Shown: one piece after another, positions 16,110-31,100 of the stretch
Position numbering within the stretch: the stretch's first letter is position 1
Layout of the letters: each line of letters begins with the position of its first letter
Assembly: GCA_903813345.2 (NCBI GenBank)
Contig: CAIIXF020000006.1
Coordinates: 15,752,348-15,816,347 of the forward strand
DNA: 64,000 nt
DNA from: Owenia fusiformis
Lineage: Eukaryota; Annelida; Polychaeta; Sabellida; Oweniidae
Reading direction: 5' to 3'
Translations under genes and position numbers: made by a program
Notes under the pieces: generated by a model
What the model was told of the DNA's origin: nothing
Seen by the model: only the letters and a program-made list of their open reading frames with translations
The model's database searches: none

Positions 16110-19100
16110 CTGCAAATTGATTGGATTTAGTCAATATTGTGGGATCAAAGTCAGATAAATCATTAAATATCATGTACATGTATCTAATCTAAAAACTCGA
16201 ACCAGGAAGAGAGCAGTTACATACAATCACCTGACATCTGATGTAAGACCACTAAATTCTATAAATGCAAATTGTTGTTTTTCTGGTTTGTTTATCATAC
16301 TAGAATCGTAACAAAGAACCTGTTTCTATAATTATGGCAAATATATGATCTCAGATTTTATTCTGGCCATTGTCAAAGACCTCAATCGCTACCCAATTTT
16401 GGTCCTTTCAGAGTGAAGAGATTAAAATTTTCGGTAATATATTGTGCCACAAATCATAAAATCTTGGTCTTTATTCCTTAAAAAATAAAATATTATTATT
16501 GTAGCAGAATGAAATTTAATGAGAATAAATGTGTTAGATATAAATGGAAAATAGAAAGAAATGAAATATTCACAAGATGTTTATTATAAAATATGGAATA
16601 CATTACTGCATATTGTTTGTTGTTACATACCATTGGCTAATGCACTGTTCGCAATAACTGTGTGTACAACTCAGAACTACATCTGCCTTGTGTTCCATAC
16701 AAATGGGACATTCACTGTCAACTGTAGGGGCACAATCTACTCTGAAATATGCATTTACACAAAATTATATACTGCTCCAACATGTGATATGTTATCAAAT
16801 TTTATTAATTTTTGCGGATGATGTACTGTATGTGGCATCTGAGATTTCTGATATTTGATAATGGCAACACCAAGGCAATGCAAATCCCAGCATTCTATCA
16901 GTTCTTTTCTAGCAGGTACAGATGTGATCAGATTGACCCGCCGCATCACAAATTCATGTCCCATTATTCTTAATCATACTACTTTTTATCAAATTGTGGT
17001 ACTAAGTACAGTTCTGAGATAAGCAATCACTTAGAATATCTCAAACTTAAGTGGAGCATTTGTTAAATGCAATATATGTTGATAACTTCCTCATCTACTC
17101 TGGTCTCTGTTGAAATACAATACTGTATAAATGTTAAGAATAATCTTCATTTGTCTGTTGAGACTATTTTAAAGGCCCACTATACTCAATTAAGAAAAAA
17201 AAGAAAAAAGAATCATTGAAACATGTTACTCCGACAATCACTCAAATATGAGCTTGATTTGCTTTAATATTGAACCAAGCAAAGAATAACTCACATAGAA
17301 AACAGCATTTGAATCTCAGAGATCATTAGTAGTGCAGTCTTTATTTTGCCCAAAAATGTTGAAAATATGCAAAGTGGGCCTTTAATTGGCCAGATTTTAG
17401 TTGCTCAAAATATGAAATCGGTAAAAGGTCAACAAGACATCACAATTTATATATTTTGCACTCAAAGACAGAGCCAGAAACCTTGGAAATATCAAATGCA
17501 GTCATGAGAAAACCAACCATGGAAATACTGAGACTGAACCATGGAATTATTAACCTTTGAAATACATGTACTGAGATCAGAATTCAAAAAGAAACCCCTA
17601 CTTTGAGAAGACCTGTGCACTGAACTGGGAATCAAAGCATGGGGCTAAGCAATAGTAGTAACCTTGACTCTGCCAATAAGCCATAGCGGGTGGTGGGGCG
17701 GGTGGACCTAATAGTGGACCTAATAGTTTCATTAGTGAGCATAGCTGTGTGTGAACTCAGATCACATATCTTAGCAAGACTTCAGGAAATGCGCAAGAAT
17801 GGGTTTGAAAGTGTGTTTAGAGAGTGGGTGAATAGGCATAAGAAGTGTATAGCTAGAGATGAACATTATGTTGAATAGCTTATTTTCATAACAATGGGAC
17901 TTTAGGACTGTTTTTATATTGTATTTGTGGTAGTAATAGGCCTGGGAGTATGAATAAAGCTATCAGAAAGAATAAATATGTTTCAGAAAGTTGTGACATA
18001 AACAAACTTGCCCCGCCAATCAAATAGGAGACGCTTTAAATTCACAGAATAAAGGTGAAAGGGTTTGGGCTACAAACTCTGAAAAGTCCATCAACATTGG
18101 TGCAATTTTAAGAAAGTTACAATATCTTTCACCTTATTTTCGCGGGAAAATCCTAACACATTAGAAGTCAATGGGAATCATGACGGAAACGGGTTAATTT
18201 TATTGTCAAATTATGTTGAGTAGTGATAATATTTATGATAAATGTAATTGAATTTAATTAATTATACTCCCGTCTATATTCCCCCTTCTTTATATTGTTC
18301 TGGGGAATCAAATGAATAGAGAAATATTGATGTGAAGAGTCCAATGTTTCCTGTACATTTTCAAATTACGCCGACTGTACAAAACCCCATGTTAGTTCTT
18401 GACTGTCAAAATGTTAACATCCCATGGTAATCTTAAGTTTGTGTAATATTTTCTCATGGGGAGTGAAGAAGGGGGTACAGCTTAACCTTGAAAAAAAGTA
18501 TTCGACTCTCAAATCTGGGCCAAAGCGTTACTTTCACTTACAATCAGCTACTTCCCAGCTAACAATTTTACGTTGTGATAACGTCGTCAGAATATATGTC
18601 TCAAGTTGTAGCAACGTTAAATATGGAACGTTGTAGGTACAGGAAGGTGTGGACTCGCACAGATGTTTAAAGAACGTTACATTTGACTTAAATATCACGT
18701 GTCAGGAACGTAGTAGCGACCTTAACAATTACGTCGCCAAAATAACGAAACTGTAACGTACTTACATTACGTCATATATACGTGGCCAATCTAAATTTCT
18801 GGTAACGTTGATATGGAACGTTGTAGGTACAGGAAGGTGTGGACTCGCATAGATGTTTAAAGAACGTTAGATTTGACTTAAATATCACGTGTCAGGAACG
18901 TAGTAGCGACCTTAACAATTACGTCACCAAAATAACGAAAATGTAACGTACTTACATTACGTCATAAATACGTGGCCAATCTAAATTTCTGGTAACGTTG
19001 ATATGGAACGTTGTAGGTACAGGAAGGTGTGGACTCGCACAGATGTTTAAAGAACGTTACATTTGACTTAAATATCACGTGTCAGGAACGTAGTAGCGAC

Positions 19101-22100
19101 CTTAACAATAACGTCGCCAAAATAACGAAACTGTAACGTACTTACATTACGTCATATATACGTGGCCAATCTAAATTTCTGGTAACGTTGATATGGAACG
19201 TTGTAGGTACAGGAAGATGTGGACTCGCATAGATGTTTAAAGAACGTTACATTTGACTTAAATATCACGTGTCAGGAACGTAGTAGCGACCTCAACAATT
19301 ACGTCACCAAAATAACGAAAATGTAACGTACTTACATTACGTCATAAATACGTGGCCAATCTAAATTTCTGGTAACGTTGATATGGAACGTTGTAGGTAC
19401 AGGAAGGTGTGGACTCGCACAGATGTTTAAAGAACGTTACATTTGACTTAAATATCACGTGTCAGGAACGTAGTAGCGACCTTAACAATAAAGTCGCCAA
19501 AATAACGAAACTGTAACGTACTTACATTACGTCATATATACGTGGCCAATCTAATTTTCTGGTAACGTTGATATGGAACGTTGTAGGTACAGGAAGGTGT
19601 GGACTCGCATAGATGTTTAAAGAACGTTACATTTGACTTAAATATCACGTGTCAGGAACGTAGTAGCGACCTAAACAATTACGTCACCAAAATAACGAAA
19701 ATGTAACGTACTTACATAACGTCATATATACGTGGCCAATCTAAATTTCTGGTAACGTTGATATGGAACGTTGTAGGTACAGGAAGGTGTGGACTCGCAC
19801 AGATGTTTAAAGAACGTTACATTTGACTTAAATATCACGTGTCAGGAACGTAGTAGCGACCTTAACAATAACGTCGCCAAAATAACGAAACTGTAACGTA
19901 CTTACGTTACGTCATATATACGTGGCCAATCTAAATTTCTGGTAACGTTGATATGGAACGTTGTAGGTACAGGAAGATGTGGACTCGCACAGATGTTTAA
20001 AGAACGTTACATTTGACTTAAATATCACGTGTCAGGAACGTAGTAGCGACCTTAACAATAACGTCGCCAAAATAACGAAACTGTAACGTACTTACATTAC
20101 GTCATATATACGTGGCCAATCTAATTTTCTGGTAACGTTGATATGGAACGTTGTAGGTACAGGAAGGTGTGGACTCGCATAGATGTTTAAAGAACGTTAC
20201 ATTTGACTTAAATATCACGTGTCAGGAACGTAGTAGCGACCTAAACAATTACGTCACCAAAATAACGAAAATGTAACGTACTTACATAACGTCATATATA
20301 CGTGGCCAATCTAAATTTCTGGTAACGTTGATATGGAACGTTGTAGGTACAGGAAGGTGTGGACTCGCACAGATGTTTAAAGAACGTTACATTTGACTTA
20401 AATATCACGTGCCAGGAACGTGGAACCAACCTAAACGATGACTTCGCCAAAATAACGAAAATGTAACGTACTTACATTACGTCATAAATACGTGGCCAAT
20501 CTAAATTTCTGATACGTTAATTATGGAACGTTGTAGGTACAGGAAGTTGTGGACTCGCACAGATGTTCAAAGAACGTTACATTTGACTTAAATATCACGT
20601 GCCAGGAACGTAGAACCAACCTAAAAGATAACTTCGCAAAAATAACGAGACTGTAATGTGCTTATGCAACGTCACATATACGTGGCCAGTTTTAAGTTCT
20701 GGTACGTTAATTATGGAACGTTGTAGGTACAGGAAGGTGTGGACTCGCACAGATGTTTAAAGAACGTTACATTTGACTTAAATATCACGTGCCAGGAATG
20801 TAGAACCAACCTTAACGATGACTTCGCAAAAATAGTGAGACTGTAATGTGCTTATGCAACGTAACATATACCTGGCCAGTTTAAAGTTCTGGTAACGTTT
20901 GTCTTGGACCGATGTAGGCACAGGAAGGTCTGGACTCGCACAGATGTTTATACAACGTTACATTTTACTTAAATATCATGTGCTAGGAATGTAGTAGCAA
21001 CCTTAACAATGACTGCAAAAATAAAATAACAGACTGTAACGTGCTAATGCAACGTCACATATACGTGGCCAAGTTAAAGTTCAGGTAACATTAACTATAG
21101 AACGTTGTAGGCAAAGGAAAGTGTGGACACGCATAAATGAGTATACAAGTTACGTTCGACTTAGATATCATGAGCCAGGAATGTAGTACCAACCTTAACA
21201 ACGACTTTGCCAAAATAAAGAGACTGTAACGTGCTTGTCATAACTTCTGGTTACATCAAGTTAGGACAACACATGCAAGGAATGTTCTAGTAACCTTAAT
21301 TATGCCATCAACAAGATATAGTGATAGTAATGACTAACGTCCAGTTAAATGAATCATTACATGAACATAATTTAAAGTTCCTGTACAGGAAGATGTAGAC
21401 ACCGATGTTCAGTAAAATTATATATAACACACTAAGCCTAACATTTTCACATGTGAAGGTAAAACCCAACTAACTCATGCTTTGACTTATTAACAAATGT
21501 ATATCGTTTTTCCAATAATTAATGAGTTAATACACAAGAACTTTTTTGAGCATCCAAATAGAGAATATTGACACACAGAATTGAACTTAAATATAATTAC
21601 AGTCTCGTATGTCATCTATCAAAAATCTATCCTATCGTTAATAAGTTTTATTAAGTATTTTATTAACCCCTAAACGGTTAAGGGGGTGGGGAGATTTGCC
21701 GTTCTGGCTTGTCTTAAAATTGAATTAGGCATATTTTAACTAATAAATCGTGACTATATTGTATTTACTGAGGGATATACACTGTATCAAAAATCGAGCA
21801 TTTAATAACTGATTTATCCTATACTTAGTAGATTATGAGAATTAAATATGCATTGAAATTTCCCATTTTTCCCCAAATTTTTTTTCACATTTTTTAAAAA
21901 AAAAATTTCAATTTTTCAAATTTTATTTTTCAAAATATGAGTTAGGCTATATGAGTTTGATAATCTCAGAAACTTAAAAAAACACTTTAAAACACCAAGA
22001 AAATGTGTATCTTAAGTATATTTTTGAATTTTGGAACTTTATAAGGTATATGACGTACCAAGAACATCAGTAGGTATGAAATACATCTGTTATGTACGGT

Positions 22101-25100
22101 CGGTTTTGGATACAGGGTTTATCCCTCAGGAAATATGTGTATATCCCTTGGTCCCTGCGGTCCCTCGGGATATACACATATTTCCCTTGGGATAAAACCT
22201 GTATCCAAAACCTCCCAGTACATAACCCTTATATATCTCCCGCTCAACTCAGATATCAATTATATTCCCGCATGTTATTTACCTATAACACTACTTAGTA
22301 TGGGATTAACCTTTGATGATCTTTCAATATTTCATTTCCGAGATTGTGCCCAGATCTCGGCAGATCTAATCACCCCCTTTACTATGAATGTAATTATCTA
22401 TAGCCTAACTGTTTAGGGGTTATATTGTTATTTTTCTGAACGGGAATGAATAAATATTCTAATTTGAGCTTGAACAAATGCTCTATTAGTTAACATGGTA
22501 TTGATTTTCAAAAAGCAATAAGGACCATTTTAAGTTGGAAATAAATCTAGAAAAATTGCATGTTTCAGATATGAAGCCATTATATCTATGCAATCTTAAA
22601 AGTACTGTCCCGTTACTTGTTGTAGAGATAAAAATTTAATTCAAACTGGCTTGCTTCTCGGAACAGATATTGTTTATGCTTAGTGTTCATTTTTCCTTGA
22701 AAGCATGAGCTCTCATTGGTCCTCATCACTTTCCAAATGTTTTTTCAAATGACTTGTACAGCTCAGTCGTTGTTTCCCTGGTTGCATGTTTAACACATTG
22801 CCATTTCTGCTTGTTTTTGGACATTTTCCTGGAAAAAATCAATCTATTAAAAAGTATGAAATGTAACCTGTATACCCATACCCACTCTGTATATTTTGCA
22901 GTGTCATTTTCAACCAAAATTGAGCTAGCGATCTATTCTTTACAATCTCAGATACAATATGTCTCAAAGGTCTACAATGTGTTGTAAATCAGTAAGTTAT
23001 TGAGGATTAAAAGTGCGAAAATCGGGAAAATTTTTAAATTCTTCCAAATATAAATATGGAAGCCATATATATAAAATAAAATACATAATTGTAAAATTCT
23101 TTGGTAAAATACTCTAGTATTCCTGAAGTAAAGTCTGCACTTTATATTTTTAGAATAGAATGACAAGGATCTTGCTAGATTTGATTCTGCTGGAAACTTA
23201 ATATATATAAAATACTTCTATAATGAATAATAGATTAACCTGGACTTACCGAAGTCACTTTCCTCGCAACTCCCCAAGCTCAGAGGACTGTAGACTGCCT
23301 AACTTCCAAACCGTCAAATGTTCCATTCTGCTTGTACTGCTAGTTTGTCTGAAATATTTTAGAGACTTGTAGTATAAACATTTTATTAGTTGGTTATCTG
23401 AAAATGCACCTGAGGGTGTAATCTTTCTTCCACCAGATCTGATCTTTGTCTCAGGAGACTTTTTGGGACTACTCTGGGGTAAAACAATCCCTATGCTCAT
23501 CTGTTTATAGATCCCTAGTAGCTTTTTGTACTATCCTTTTGTATTTCTACAGTAGAATCATATAGCCAAAACATTCCTTCGTTGACTCTCATAATCTTCA
23601 TCCAATGATCTAACTAGAGATCTATTTATTAAAATATTCTATTGGATAATAATTTGAAATGTTGGAACGGTAGGAAAGTAGATACCTGAGAATGACTCTT
23701 AACTTTCTGAGATAAAATATGGCAGGTCAACTTCGGGTCAGTGTGACACCTCTAGAAATAATATAGGCCTACCTGATTAGCATAACACCACTCATCTCAA
23801 CACAGCCAAAATCATCTCAGGGTTATCATGGGTGAAGGCTACAACAATCCTGAAAACAGAATAGGTAGATGGGAAAATAGAGGACAATAGTAGTACTTTA
23901 AAAGACTGTTACTTTATTTTATACTTTTATTTCAAATTGTATTGATTAAGATAAGACCTTTAAATTGTGAATATGATGAGTAAATCTACTGAGATGTTTT
24001 AACATTGTGTCAATCAGGATTAAGTTCAAACCTTTTAAAAGAACTTAATTATATAGCAGTCATACTTTTAAAATTTGCACAGGGCGCCAAATTAAATAGC
24101 ACCAAATTAAAGCAATTTACAGTATCTCATTTGCTGTGAAACTGTGAAAGTTAAATAATAACTGCATTAAATACAAATGAATACTTTCTGAAGCAAGGAG
24201 CCACAAATAATGCAAGTTAATTAAATCAAACGATGAAATAATATACCTGATTAGTATGAAACACCATCATCCAACAAGGTCTCAGGGTTATCATGGATGA
24301 AAGCTACAAAAATCTGGTTCATCTCCTACTTCTGAAAACAGAGTAGAGAACTATTGTACACTAAGATGGAAAAACAGATGACAATAGTAGTTTTTTTAAA
24401 GGCTGATAAAAGTTAACTTAACTTAAAAGAAATTAACTTTCATTGAATTCGATCAATAAAAACAAAGCTTAATTTCAGATTTGCTGAAGATGAAATACAC
24501 TTTTCAGTCTCTATCAATTGTTAAAAGGCGTGTGCTTATAACAAACACCATTTCGATTAAAAAATATCAATAATCAGGCCCAGCCCATAGCAAGGATTTG
24601 CCAAGGGGGGTTCATTTTTCAAAAATTTCCAAGGGGGGTTCACATTTGACAATTTTGGCCCAAATATGGACAAAATCACTTGAGAAGTGCTCAAAATGGT
24701 GAAAACTGCATGATTTTGAAAGAATTTTTGGCCAGGGGGGGGGGGGTTCGCCCGAACCCTGCGAACCCCCCCCCCCTGGCTACGGGCCTGATAATCATAC
24801 AGTTTCAAGGAAGGTTGAAGTTCACCTTTCAGTCTCCGTAAATTGGTAAAGGGTGTATGCTTAATATGCTTAATAACAGACACATTTCCACATCAAAAAC
24901 TGTCAAAGGCGAACCTAAATCATAATATGGATAATGTTTGATTTTAAATTAAATTCACAAAAGTTTGCCAGGCATATGTTATATACTAGCCTAAATAAAT
25001 TTCACCCTATGCAGACAGAGCCTGTGGGAAATATTGGGTGCGGCGCAAATGAGCGGAGGATGCGGAGCTAACGGTCATTTTTGATTTTAAAATTGGGATA

Positions 25101-28100
25101 TTTCTGAAACTAAGCCGTTTTGGGACTTCAAATATACCAAGATATGTGTATTTGACACCAAATATCAAAAAATTGTGAAAATAGTAGTGCAATTCATTTT
25201 ATAGCGACGCAGTATGCCTTAAACATTTCCCAGACCTATATATTTTGAGACTATCCTTTTAATACTGCGTCCCCAGCATTCATAAACAAGGCATTAACAT
25301 GACAAAATGTCACCACCTAGTTAGGTCATTGAAGGTCAAATGTCAAATCTTAAGTCAAATCTAAAGTCAGATTTGAACTTCTGAGAACACGTAGATGATT
25401 TAGAAAAAAATTGAAGTCAGTCTAAACAGTATTTGTTAAGTTATAGGAAGTTGTAAGAAATTGTTACAGACGCCGGACGCCAACCTCCAACCACCAACCG
25501 CCGTCGGAAAAAAACGGAGACCATAACAATATGTCACCACTTTTGGTGGTGACATAAAAATGGTGTTCAAGATACACTACCCATGCAAATTATTTTTGCA
25601 TCTTGGAAGCCATGCAGTATCTGTGTGATTTTATAAAAATTCGGAAATGTTCTTCAGATATGAGCCCCCTCTAAATATTGGGTGCGGAGGTACGTTTATG
25701 GAGCTCCTCCGCACCCAATATTTAGAGGGGGCTCATATCTGAAAAACATTTCCGAATTTTTATAAAAGCACACAGATACTGCCTGGCTTCCAAGATGCAA
25801 AAATAATTTGTATAGATAGTGTACCTTGAACACCATTTTTTATGAATGCTGGGGACTCAGTATTAAAAGGATAATTTCAAAATATATAGGTCTGGGAAAG
25901 GTTTAAGGCACACTGCGTCGCTACAGAATGAATTGCGCTACTATTTTCACAATTGTATTGATATTTGGTGTCAAATACACATATCTTGGTATATTTGAAG
26001 TCCCAAAACGGCTTAGTTTCAGAAATATCCCAAATTTAAATTCAAAAATGACCGTTAGCTCCGCACCCCCCGCTCATTTGCTCCGCACCCAATATTTCCC
26101 ACAGGCTCTGTCTGCATAGGGTGAATTTTGGAACATAAATAAATGACATGTGAATTTGCTGGAGTGACGATTTCCCATGTTAAAAATAAGAGAATCTTAG
26201 AGAGACCATACATCATGCGATTTATCGCATTCTACCCCCACTTTAACAAAAACCCGTATGGCCCAGTTATCTACGCCTGACGTTGTTGGTCTACGACATT
26301 TCAGAATCAGGGAGTGGATAACAGGGCCAGACGAGTTTGGTTACCCCCACTTATGTTTTTTACAAATTTAAGTGGGGGTCGTAGAGTAGATAAGATTACA
26401 GTAAAATTTTGAATGTTTGGAACTTCTTTGAATCTAAAAAATAAGCAATTAAAGGACCACATTGAAACAGAACATGTAAAAATAGAAACATTTATACATG
26501 TTCTTACTTTTGTTTATTTTAGTTTGTTTTGTAGTTTAGCTATCATATCTGTGACCTCATATTTCAATGCTTCTCTGCCATGTTATTTTCAAAAAAATTA
26601 AAGAACTCCCTAAATATAGTATGCTATCTATTCACTGGTGATCCGCTCGATTACACTGGTTACCGAAACGGTTCGTTTTGGTAACAAAATGTCGGAACGT
26701 CGAAGGTACGATTTTTCTTTTTTTCTTATTTCACGCATTGTAGGCAGAATCCCCACAACATTTTTTCTCACAAACATGTATCAGCATCATATGTTTTAGA
26801 AAATGAACATGTTTGCGAAAAATAGGCATAGCTCAGAAGACAACAGAATCATCGATTTAATTCCTCACTTAAGTTACACAAACGGTTCGGGTTAAAAGTG
26901 CAGATCTTAAGGTTCAGCTGGAAAGTAACATTTTGGTAAAAAATTGCTATACCTGCACATGTTATTTTCTGGTACAAAATTTAGTATGAAGGCATGTGTG
27001 TATTTCCTTGCTTTTTTCAGGAAAGTATCATTACACTGTCTACTTTTAGTAAACCTGGAAACAGGTCAATGGTAGCTCCTGTGTTGTCTGGAAACTTTGA
27101 AAGAAAATTTGGAAAAATAGAAAGTGTGAAATATCGGAATTTCCTGGAGTTCCCATTGAACTCCTAATAGATATCATTAAAGAAGACAATGTAATGATAC
27201 TTTCCTGAAAAAAGCAAGGCAATTGACAAATGTCTTCATACTTTATTTTGTACCAGAAAATAACATGTGCTGGTATAGCAATTTTTTTACCAAAATGTTA
27301 CTTTCCAGCTGTACCTTAACTGTTTTTCGAAAAAACCGTTTATGTAACTTAAGTGAGGAATTAAATCGACGATTCTATTGTCTTCTGAACTATTTGTTCG
27401 CAAACATGTACATTTTCTAAAGCATATGAAACTGATACATGTTTGTGTATTTCTGCCATCATGATTATCTATCAGGCTAAAGATGGCAATCACTGACTCC
27501 CCGGGCAATGTCTATTCTTTGAAAGAGGTAGATCTAACAGAGATCACCATCAAGATTAAGATAACTGCATAAACTTATCCCGTTCCCCGACTATAGTCCT
27601 GCACTGAGCGCATTCATTTGCCTGTACGATTACAACTTGGGAGAATTATCTACGCCCTTTACACTTAAGATACCTACCTCAATGCATTATAGAACTCAAG
27701 ATGTAACTTCTAATATATTGGAACCGCCAATTTGCCGTTTGGCTGTCCCGGATGTAGCCCGGAAGTACCAATATGGAGGAATTTGACGGTTGAAATAAGT
27801 TAAATGTTACACGCAAATATTGGCAAAACTGCCCTAATTCACGTCACCATACTAGTCAATGGGCAAAAGGGCAAACGCCTGACTTTTTATCTCGAGTTAT
27901 GGATTTATGTGGCCTCACTGGCCTATCTGAGGTTCTAAAGCTATGTCTAAGCTACATCTTGACACTAAACTCAATAGGGGCCAATCATCTACTTTTTGAA
28001 ATAATTGGTCAATTGTGACACTACCCCCTCTCTCTGCAGACACAAATTGAAATTCACAAAAATGAAGGCAAAATTAATACGCCACTTGACTCGAAATTTT

Positions 28101-31100
28101 CCTTCAGATAACCCAAATGAACGCATTTTCAGAAGAAATGGCATGTTGCCATTGCAAAAAGATTACAACTGTGCCTACATACTAGCTTACTGACTCGTCA
28201 TGATCACAATTGTGTTGGGACTACATTTATTTTTGAATACTACTTTTTTCTATTCAGCGGAAGTGACGTATTAGGGCATTTTGGCCATTGCGATTTAAAA
28301 ACGAAAATGTCTTCGTTCTGCCGATAAACCCAGACAATTGTGGATTCAACTACACGAAAAGAATGCTAAATTACCAAGGAATCTATTGAAGTAGGTATCT
28401 GAAGTGTAAGATGAGTAAAAAATTCTCCCATGTTGTAATCGCACAGGCAAAAGATTGAGATGTTCACAGGACCATAGTCCGGGAACGGGATAAGCATAAA
28501 CCATTTGCCATAAACACTTCACCATCCAATCAACACATCTGCGCCAGATCCAAGGGACCGGATCTGACTTGAAAGTCGCTGATGGTTAATTGACCCCTAG
28601 ACCCCTTGTAATTGACCTAACGAAAATTATGAACCGGGAATTATGATTGAAAATCGTGATGAAATTGAATATCAATAACATCGATTCAAATATCAGAATA
28701 TTCAAAAGTTCATTTCAAAAATTATGAAAATTGAAACGATCCCAACTTTCACATGAGATTATTTGTGTTCTCGCTGCAAGTACCGGCCATGGAATGCTTT
28801 CATTTTAGCCTTTGGTGATTGTGTAACATGCATGCATCATTCTTACCTTCGAAAGCTGGCAGTACGGCTCCCAAGTTGCTTTTAAGCAGCAATATTCTTG
28901 AACTTGGAACTGTCCTCCATGTTGATTTCGACGCGGGAATTCCTCTATTTCTATTGGTTGATAGAACAGAATACGATAAAAAGCCGAACGAGACATACAT
29001 CAAATTTGCGAACGATGTACTTTCCGTTTGTAACGCTCGCCCTTGTTGAAAGGGACTAAAATTTTTGTCCCGAGGTCTGACAAATCGCCGGAAGAGTGGA
29101 GTTTTAGTCAATTTACCGATAATTCGCAAACTTTAGTCCCGGTGTAAAAGGGTAGGAGGTCCTATCAAATTATGGTCCTACTTTCCATTGATTTATATGG
29201 TGACCTAAATACAACTCTCCCTTATTATCGTATCCACAATCAGGGCCAGTAAGGGCCTTTAAGAAAGGGGACCATAATCCCCAGGGGACCATAATTTCTT
29301 TTACACCGGCAAGCTCCAGAGGAAGTCGACATGGACATCTATGAAGTTCAGAGGAAGAAAATATGGAATTTTATAACTCTGAGAGGAATAATACATGGAA
29401 ACTTCCAATTTTGAGAGGAAATTGACAATAAAAAAATGCTCAAAAAGGGGGTCTTTGGCGCGGCACATAGGTATTAAGACATGGGCGTAGCCAGGGGGGG
29501 TGCGATGGGTGCGATCGCACCCCCCCCCCCCTATAACCTTTGAAAATATGACCATTGGATAGAGGTAGAAAAGAGCTTTAAAATGCTTTTTATTTGAAGC
29601 TTCTAGCTCAATTTTGAAGGAAGTTGCATCAATTTTTGTAAAATTCAAAAGAAATCTTAATTTTTTGTGTTGCTTATGGCAAAATCGCACCCCCCCTGAC
29701 CGAAAACTGAAAAATTTTCGGCGATCGCACCCCCCCTGACTGAAAGCTGGCTACGCCCCTGTAAGAGGTATATTGGAGTGAACCCCCCGGGACAGAACGT
29801 CAGACTTTTGTCAGCAATAACCCATGGCAAAATTACAACGTCGGAGAAACGTTTTCTTTACATCATATTTCCACTCTCACTCTCAATTACTACGTTAAGT
29901 TCATCTGTGTGAGCCAACATATGCCTGTGCCTCCACCGATCAGTATTTAAAGTTACCACAACTCGAGGCATACATGTATATTCGTTATATATTTAACATT
30001 TACATCACGTCACAAATTAAACGAATTTGTTGAGACCACAACGTCTTTGTCACGTTCTTTTTCACATACATGTATATGTATTTTTCACGTTTAAAACCCG
30101 TTTCGTCAACGTCAAAATTAACTGTTTCGACAACGTTGCAAATAAACCAATTTCGTGAGGACATAGCGTCTTTTTGTAACGTTTCCTGCACTTACAAATA
30201 TTTTTTTACATTTCAATTGAAAACACGTTTCGACAACGTTGAAATTAACCGTTTGCACTACGTTGAAAATGAACCATTTTGGTCAGAAAATGACGTCTTT
30301 GTAACGTGTTTTACAATTACAAATATTTTTCACATTCAAACCATGTTTTGACAACGTTACAATTAGCCATTTTCACTACGTGGCAAATGAACCAATTTGG
30401 TGGGAAAACAAGGACTTTGTAACGTTTCCTAGACTTACAATTATCTTTCACATTTAAAACACGTTACGACAACGTCAAATTTTACTGTTTATATTACGTA
30501 GCAAATGAAACAATTTGGTGAGAACTGCAACGTCTTTGTAACGTTTTCTACACTTACAAATATCTTTCACATTTAAAACACGTACGTTACGACAACGTCA
30601 AATTTTACCGTTTACATTACGTAGCAAATGTACCAAATTTGGTGAGAACGCAACGTCTTTGTAACGTTTTTTACACTTACAAATATCTTTCACATTTAGA
30701 ACACGTTACGACGACATCAAATTTTACCGTTTATATTACGTAGGAAATGAAACAATTTGGTGAGAAGTGCAACGTCTTTGTAACGTTTTCTACACTTACA
30801 AATATCTTTCACGTTTAAAACACGTTACGACAACGTCAAATTTTACCGTTTACATTACGTAGCAAATGTACCAAATTTGGTGAGAACACAACGTCTTTGT
30901 AACGTTTTCTACACTTACAAATATCTTTCACATTTAAAACACGTGACGACAACGTCAAATTTTACCGTTTATATTACGTAGCAAATGAAACAATTTGGTG
31001 AGAACTGCAACGTTTGCTGGGTTATTATACCACATGACAATGTTACTTTTATGTCTGCCGAAGAATTTGACAATGGTCGTTACATGAGTGATGACTAATT

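Follow-up and report, generated by a model that had tools for sequence, protein, structure and literature searches.

A 190-bp ACGT-rich tandem array of Owenia fusiformis forms the left subterminal part of an interspersed DNA transposon

The 64,000-nucleotide stretch of Owenia fusiformis DNA analysed here (the window) contains a 190-bp repeat saturated with the word ACGT. A first-pass annotation had taken it for a satellite. We find that it is no free-standing satellite but part of an interspersed DNA transposon, in which it makes up the left subterminal region; the opposite end carries a second ACGT-rich array missed in that annotation. We put at about 60% the probability that this array provides the left end, acting in cis, of a large cut-and-paste transposon, apparently non-autonomous and with TRC-type termini of the CACTA/EnSpm kind, and that its arrays are multiplied binding sites for a TNPA-like protein.

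Results

Extent, termini and copies of the element

The window copy of this apparently non-autonomous transposon spans 12,468 bp (18554-31021, + strand), as delimited by a sharp left boundary, homology to other copies, terminal inverted repeats (TIRs) and a target-site duplication (TSD). The left boundary is common to 17 copies, the one in the window and 16 fetched from elsewhere: all 16 match the window inward from 18554 (CCCAGCTAACAATTTTACG...), and their outward sequence is unrelated. One of the fetched copies begins with TCC at its left end. The array was originally placed from 18547 onwards; it is there indeed, but that start lies 7 bp outside the element. To the right, homology to other copies runs beyond the 190-bp array, broken by insertions and deletions, until 31013, where it stops at the end of the second ACGT-rich array.

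The termini, CCCAGCTAACA and CCCAGCAAACA, are inverted repeats. The left TIR, CCCAGCTAACA, occupies 18554-18564 (+ strand); the right one (31012-31021, - strand), identified by comparison with copies C2 and C9, reads GTTTGCTGGG on the + strand. Compact copies elsewhere measure 9.8-10.9 kb, and the window copy is enlarged by nested insertions; it is also devoid of some 240 bp that precede the right end in intact copies, and of the outermost right-end ACGT sites. The dinucleotide TT flanks it on both sides (18552-18553 and 31022-31023), as a target-site duplication. Identical 2-bp flanks are found in 10 of 14 paired copies (TT, GC, TA, TT, GA, TC, TT, TA, CA and TA; binomial p = 7e-8 at a 10% chance match). 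In one of the four with mismatching flanks, C12, another copy of the element is nested nearby.

Searching the 498-Mb genome with a 22-bp left-end pattern (at most one mismatch) returned 91 left ends, with no match to the reversed pattern. The right-end pattern gave 158 matches, 74 of them exact; among the inexact matches listed, most start with TCCAGC and represent a second group of ends. Paired ends are typically 9-12 kb apart, and members of the family measure roughly 10-12 kb. On a small contig (C446:17075-59446), six left ends follow each other in one orientation with a spacing pattern that recurs every ~27 kb, possibly a tandem duplication or an assembly artefact.

Structure and distribution of the 190-bp array

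Tandem Repeats Finder, shuffles and unit comparison define the left subterminal array as 13.8 copies of a 190-bp unit (18613-21236, + strand). Its ACGT saturation is real: we count 111 ACGT, against a mean of 38.4 in 500 dinucleotide shuffles (sd 4.5, maximum 52). The excess holds for a single unit as well, with 9 against 3.0 (maximum 7). The initial figure of about nine ACGT per unit is correct for the outer units only, as the number drops to 3 at the inner end.

Two unit types, told apart at unit positions 48, 124 and 139, follow each other in the order A B A B A B A A B x. The alternation described in the first-pass annotation is thus seen, and it breaks between units 7 and 8. The repeated three-unit block that it also described is exact only in part: near-identity holds for units 5-6 and 8-9 (2 and 0 differences of 190), whereas 13 sites distinguish unit 7 from unit 10.

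The genome-wide search for the 190-mer suggested at that stage did reveal other copies: 285 matches to the array, distributed over many contigs in short arrays, about 40 of which were scored. Each array, with 7-15 detected units (17 copies counted), lies within one interspersed element. We therefore reject a classical (pericentromeric) satellite, since the arrays are short and placed inside interspersed elements on many contigs, not in few long blocks. Unit number and A/B order vary from copy to copy of the element; because of this variation, unequal exchange or slippage can be seen as the source of the unit-number change, the alternation and the broken order, and the unequal crossing-over first proposed is plausible within the array. 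Both the dimer order and the point where it breaks are genuine, yet they are by-products of array turnover inside a transposon.

The right array and the central region

The right subterminal array (30079-31013, + strand), detected by Tandem Repeats Finder and common to other copies, has a unit of 119/238 bp with 5 ACGT per 119-bp consensus; in total it holds 37 ACGT, against 17 in shuffles (maximum 25). No other 4-mer is as enriched as ACGT in either the 190-bp or the 119-bp monomer, where it exceeds the expectation from base composition about 14-fold.

Two compact copies, of 9.8 and 10.9 kb, carry about 22 ACGT per 500 bp across approximately the outermost 2 kb of each end; the central 5.6 kb of the 10.9-kb copy contain 3. 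The ACGT profile of these copies, the open reading frames (ORFs) and copy comparison delimit the corresponding region of the window, nearly without ACGT, at 21237-30078 (+ strand), which, compared with other copies, carries nested insertions. A Pfam search gave no match for seven ORFs of the compact copies, although spliced or decayed genes could escape it.

The second group of ends (TCCAGCAAACAGTGACGTCC...; L067, L068, L069) is ACGT-dense too. Copies resemble each other in the sequence outside this end as well, which places it within a larger repeat.

Spacing and conservation of ACGT

Counted from the left end, the first ACGT sites have offsets of 16, 27 and 60; counted from the right end, 14, 25 and 60. 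Among 50 gaps between adjacent sites, taken from the two termini, the two monomers and one terminus of the second group, 13 are exactly 11 bp, where 1.65 are expected and 20,000 random placements gave at most 8. The right end, the 119-bp unit and the second group share ancestry, so the 50 gaps are not independent of one another; independent evidence comes from the left end with its unit as against the right-hand group. In the two monomers, 26 of 28 half-sites have a purine at -3, counted outward from the core, and at 11-bp spacing the resulting RNNACGTNNY modules almost abut. Both the spacing and the purine were noticed first and then tested on the same sequences.

When all pair distances within the 190-bp unit are taken together, a strict helical phase of 10.5 bp is not supported: the signal is a specific neighbour distance and not a long-range phase. 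Genome-wide, ACGT-N7-ACGT occurs 8278 times and ACGT-N6-ACGT 3143 times (the two spacings counted), but this excess probably counts largely the same families and is hence not independent evidence.

Could the spacing be a relic? Both arrays might descend from a short ACGT-bearing minisatellite of ~12 or 24 bp, leaving ACGT without function. The gaps do cluster at 11-13, 23-25, 34-36 and 45-47 bp, and the two monomers align weakly (best 32 bp, E 0.013), as such an origin would have it. The 7-bp spacers of ACGT-N7-ACGT, however, are different each time, wholly diverged, yet ACGT persists despite being a mutable CpG word. Aligned with the right end (69% identity, 421 columns), the second group, a diverged sister family, keeps 9 of 16 ACGT sites, where other 4-mers are kept in 28% of cases (Fisher p = 0.023), a modest effect that 5 of 421 circular shifts also reach; the bases beside ACGT are conserved no better than average. 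Across 159 young units, ACGT CpGs show the lowest frequency of rare variants, the opposite of what free CpG decay would produce, with only four such variants counted. On balance we hold a relic to be unlikely.

We give slightly less credit still to host bZIP/bHLH factors (CREB/ATF, MYC/USF), whose sites would serve as a promoter or enhancer of the transposon and would not be used by its transposase. Transposons are known to carry host factor sites, and both CACGTG and TTACGTCA are present in the 190-bp unit. The bases flanking the core, however, do not keep to CACGTG or TGACGTCA; they differ widely from site to site, and what the sites have in common is only ACGT. Furthermore, both ends are filled and not one, and an 11-bp spacing is unexpected for an enhancer. 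Of the two explanations offered at the outset, selection for protein binding is therefore favoured, although through a transposon protein and not through host factors, given the confinement of ACGT to both element ends, the 11-bp spacing and the involvement of two different arrays.

The other, retention of CpG sites, we find improbable. The arrays would then be CpG-rich merely through youth or lack of germ-line methylation, with ACGT as an incidental context. In the 10.9-kb copy the CpG observed/expected ratio is indeed 1.61 and 2.21 at the ends, against 0.54 in the flank; but it is only 0.62 in the middle of the same, equally old element. What is more, 70% of the CpGs in the left array lie within ACGT (13% in the remaining window), and CpG retention explains neither the rank of ACGT as the top-enriched word nor the non-random spacing.

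Finally, it is very improbable that this is an element of the Helentron/HINE type, which in oyster has its satellite repeats in the centre and disperses short satellite-like arrays (PMC7492417): HINEs have no target-site duplications and insert at TT, and such a reading is contradicted by the inverted termini and by the varied 2-bp duplications of 10 in 14 copies.

Classification and search for a helper

Three features point to the CACTA/EnSpm superfamily, the first two of them to its TRC group: TIRs that start with CCC, a 2-bp target-site duplication in most paired copies, and a motif reiterated in the outer 2 kb of both ends. No transposase was found inside the element by Pfam search of its ORFs, and none of 14 genome matches to Transposase_21 falls between listed element ends; the element thus appears non-autonomous. 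Judged by its terminal sequence and duplication length, it looks like a non-autonomous element with TRC/CACTA-type ends, not a proven member.

Transposase_21 elements occur in the genome, although none with the ends of the present element was found there. Three candidates were rejected. At one Transposase_21 locus (C10), CCCAGCAAACA lies 1.3 kb upstream, but homologous copies run straight through it, so it is part of another repeat. A locus with CCCAGCAAACATTG and ACGT (C5) is a stray match, having no array, no matching right end and, on reading, no recognisable transposase in 7.5 kb. The third, a recently active Transposase_21 family, is not the obvious helper, since its tandem arrays are without ACGT and its end is different (...CGCCGGGG).

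This Transposase_21 (EnSpm) family (L053-L063, on C1, C6, C7 and C9) comprises nine matches with one common open frame of 608 aa. Two copies are 99.97% identical over 9.9 kb, and the family has probably been active very recently. Tandem arrays of 31-bp and 152-bp units, with no ACGT, flank the gene on both sides, so that a similar architecture recurs in the genome. Elsewhere (L070:2330-2700), an abundant and partly inverted repeat family adjoins a Transposase_21 ORF, and a second ORF follows, with a sub-threshold DUF4218 match. A literature search on the terminal words, or on ACGT together with EnSpm, found nothing relevant.

Discussion

Proposed mechanism

The data show the element with its ends and duplications, the restriction of ACGT to both ends and the spacing of the sites; from these we infer a binding protein, a cooperative pairing of the ends and a helper. 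About 2 kb of tandem repeats at each end would act as multiplied putative binding sites. The word recognised would be the palindrome ACGT, roughly RNNACGTNNY, often about one helical turn from the next (ACGT-N7-ACGT). A helper element would supply in trans a TNPA-like protein, which would bind these sites cooperatively and bring the two ends together, the many sites giving specificity to a 4-bp palindrome. A transposase would then cut at CCCAGC/GCTGGG and create the 2-bp duplication. Unequal exchange or slippage would subsequently alter unit number and order in each copy.

A bolder version, which we put forward tentatively and would not yet bet on, is that the satellite monomers of the two ends arose separately and have both been shaped by one binding protein into a lattice of ACGT with an 11-bp step, in which a 4-bp word becomes specific only through number and spacing. 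If true, animal CACTA elements would have a new way of recognising their ends, and transposons a direct route to making satellites.

An apparently free satellite thus becomes a likely functional transposon end, and its odd ACGT content is given a testable reason. We predict that some animal CACTA elements recognise their ends via many weak, evenly spaced palindromic sites. In this way, satellite arrays organised in dimers and trimers could arise and spread through the function of transposon ends.

Comparison with known elements

The oyster Cg_HINE is likewise a non-autonomous mobile element carrying dispersed short satellite-like arrays; there, however, the arrays are central, target-site duplications are absent and the class is Helentron (PMC7492417).

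Closer likenesses are found among animal TRC elements of the CACTA/EnSpm superfamily, whose TIRs start with CCC (CCCAGTCAAC in Aedes) and which produce 2-bp duplications, seen in 7 of 14 cases for SmTRC1 (PMC1636069). SmTRC1 and the insect TRC elements share both features with the Owenia element, and in SmTRC1 tandem repeats occupy a region close to the 3' end; unlike the Owenia element, these TRC elements encode Transposase_21 (PMC1636069). Hydra EnSpm-4N1, or 'Spongebob', is assigned to the TRC group of CACTA, with the TIR CCCAGCCAACATTGAC and 2-bp duplications (PMC4298943). This TIR differs by one base over 11 from CCCAGC(T/A)AACA, and both elements have multi-kilobase copies; the Hydra consensus is 5.8 kb, and ACGT arrays go unmentioned in the parts of that source available to us (PMC4298943).

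In plants, TNPA binds the subterminal repeats of CACTA elements; the reiterated motifs that it recognises there are cis-acting in transposition (PMC2613891). En/Spm and Tgmt resemble the present element in reiterating a short, family-specific motif in both subterminal regions; they differ by a CACTA terminus, a 3-bp duplication and motifs of 12-20 bp, where we see a 4-bp core inside 190-bp and 119-bp units (PMC2613891). Galileo belongs to another superfamily (P), with long inverted repeats, a THAP transposase and THAP sites; nevertheless it too carries many binding sites in tandem repeats near its ends, the counterparts of the putative sites described here, and their multiplicity has been proposed as the source of specificity for a short word (PMC3688188).
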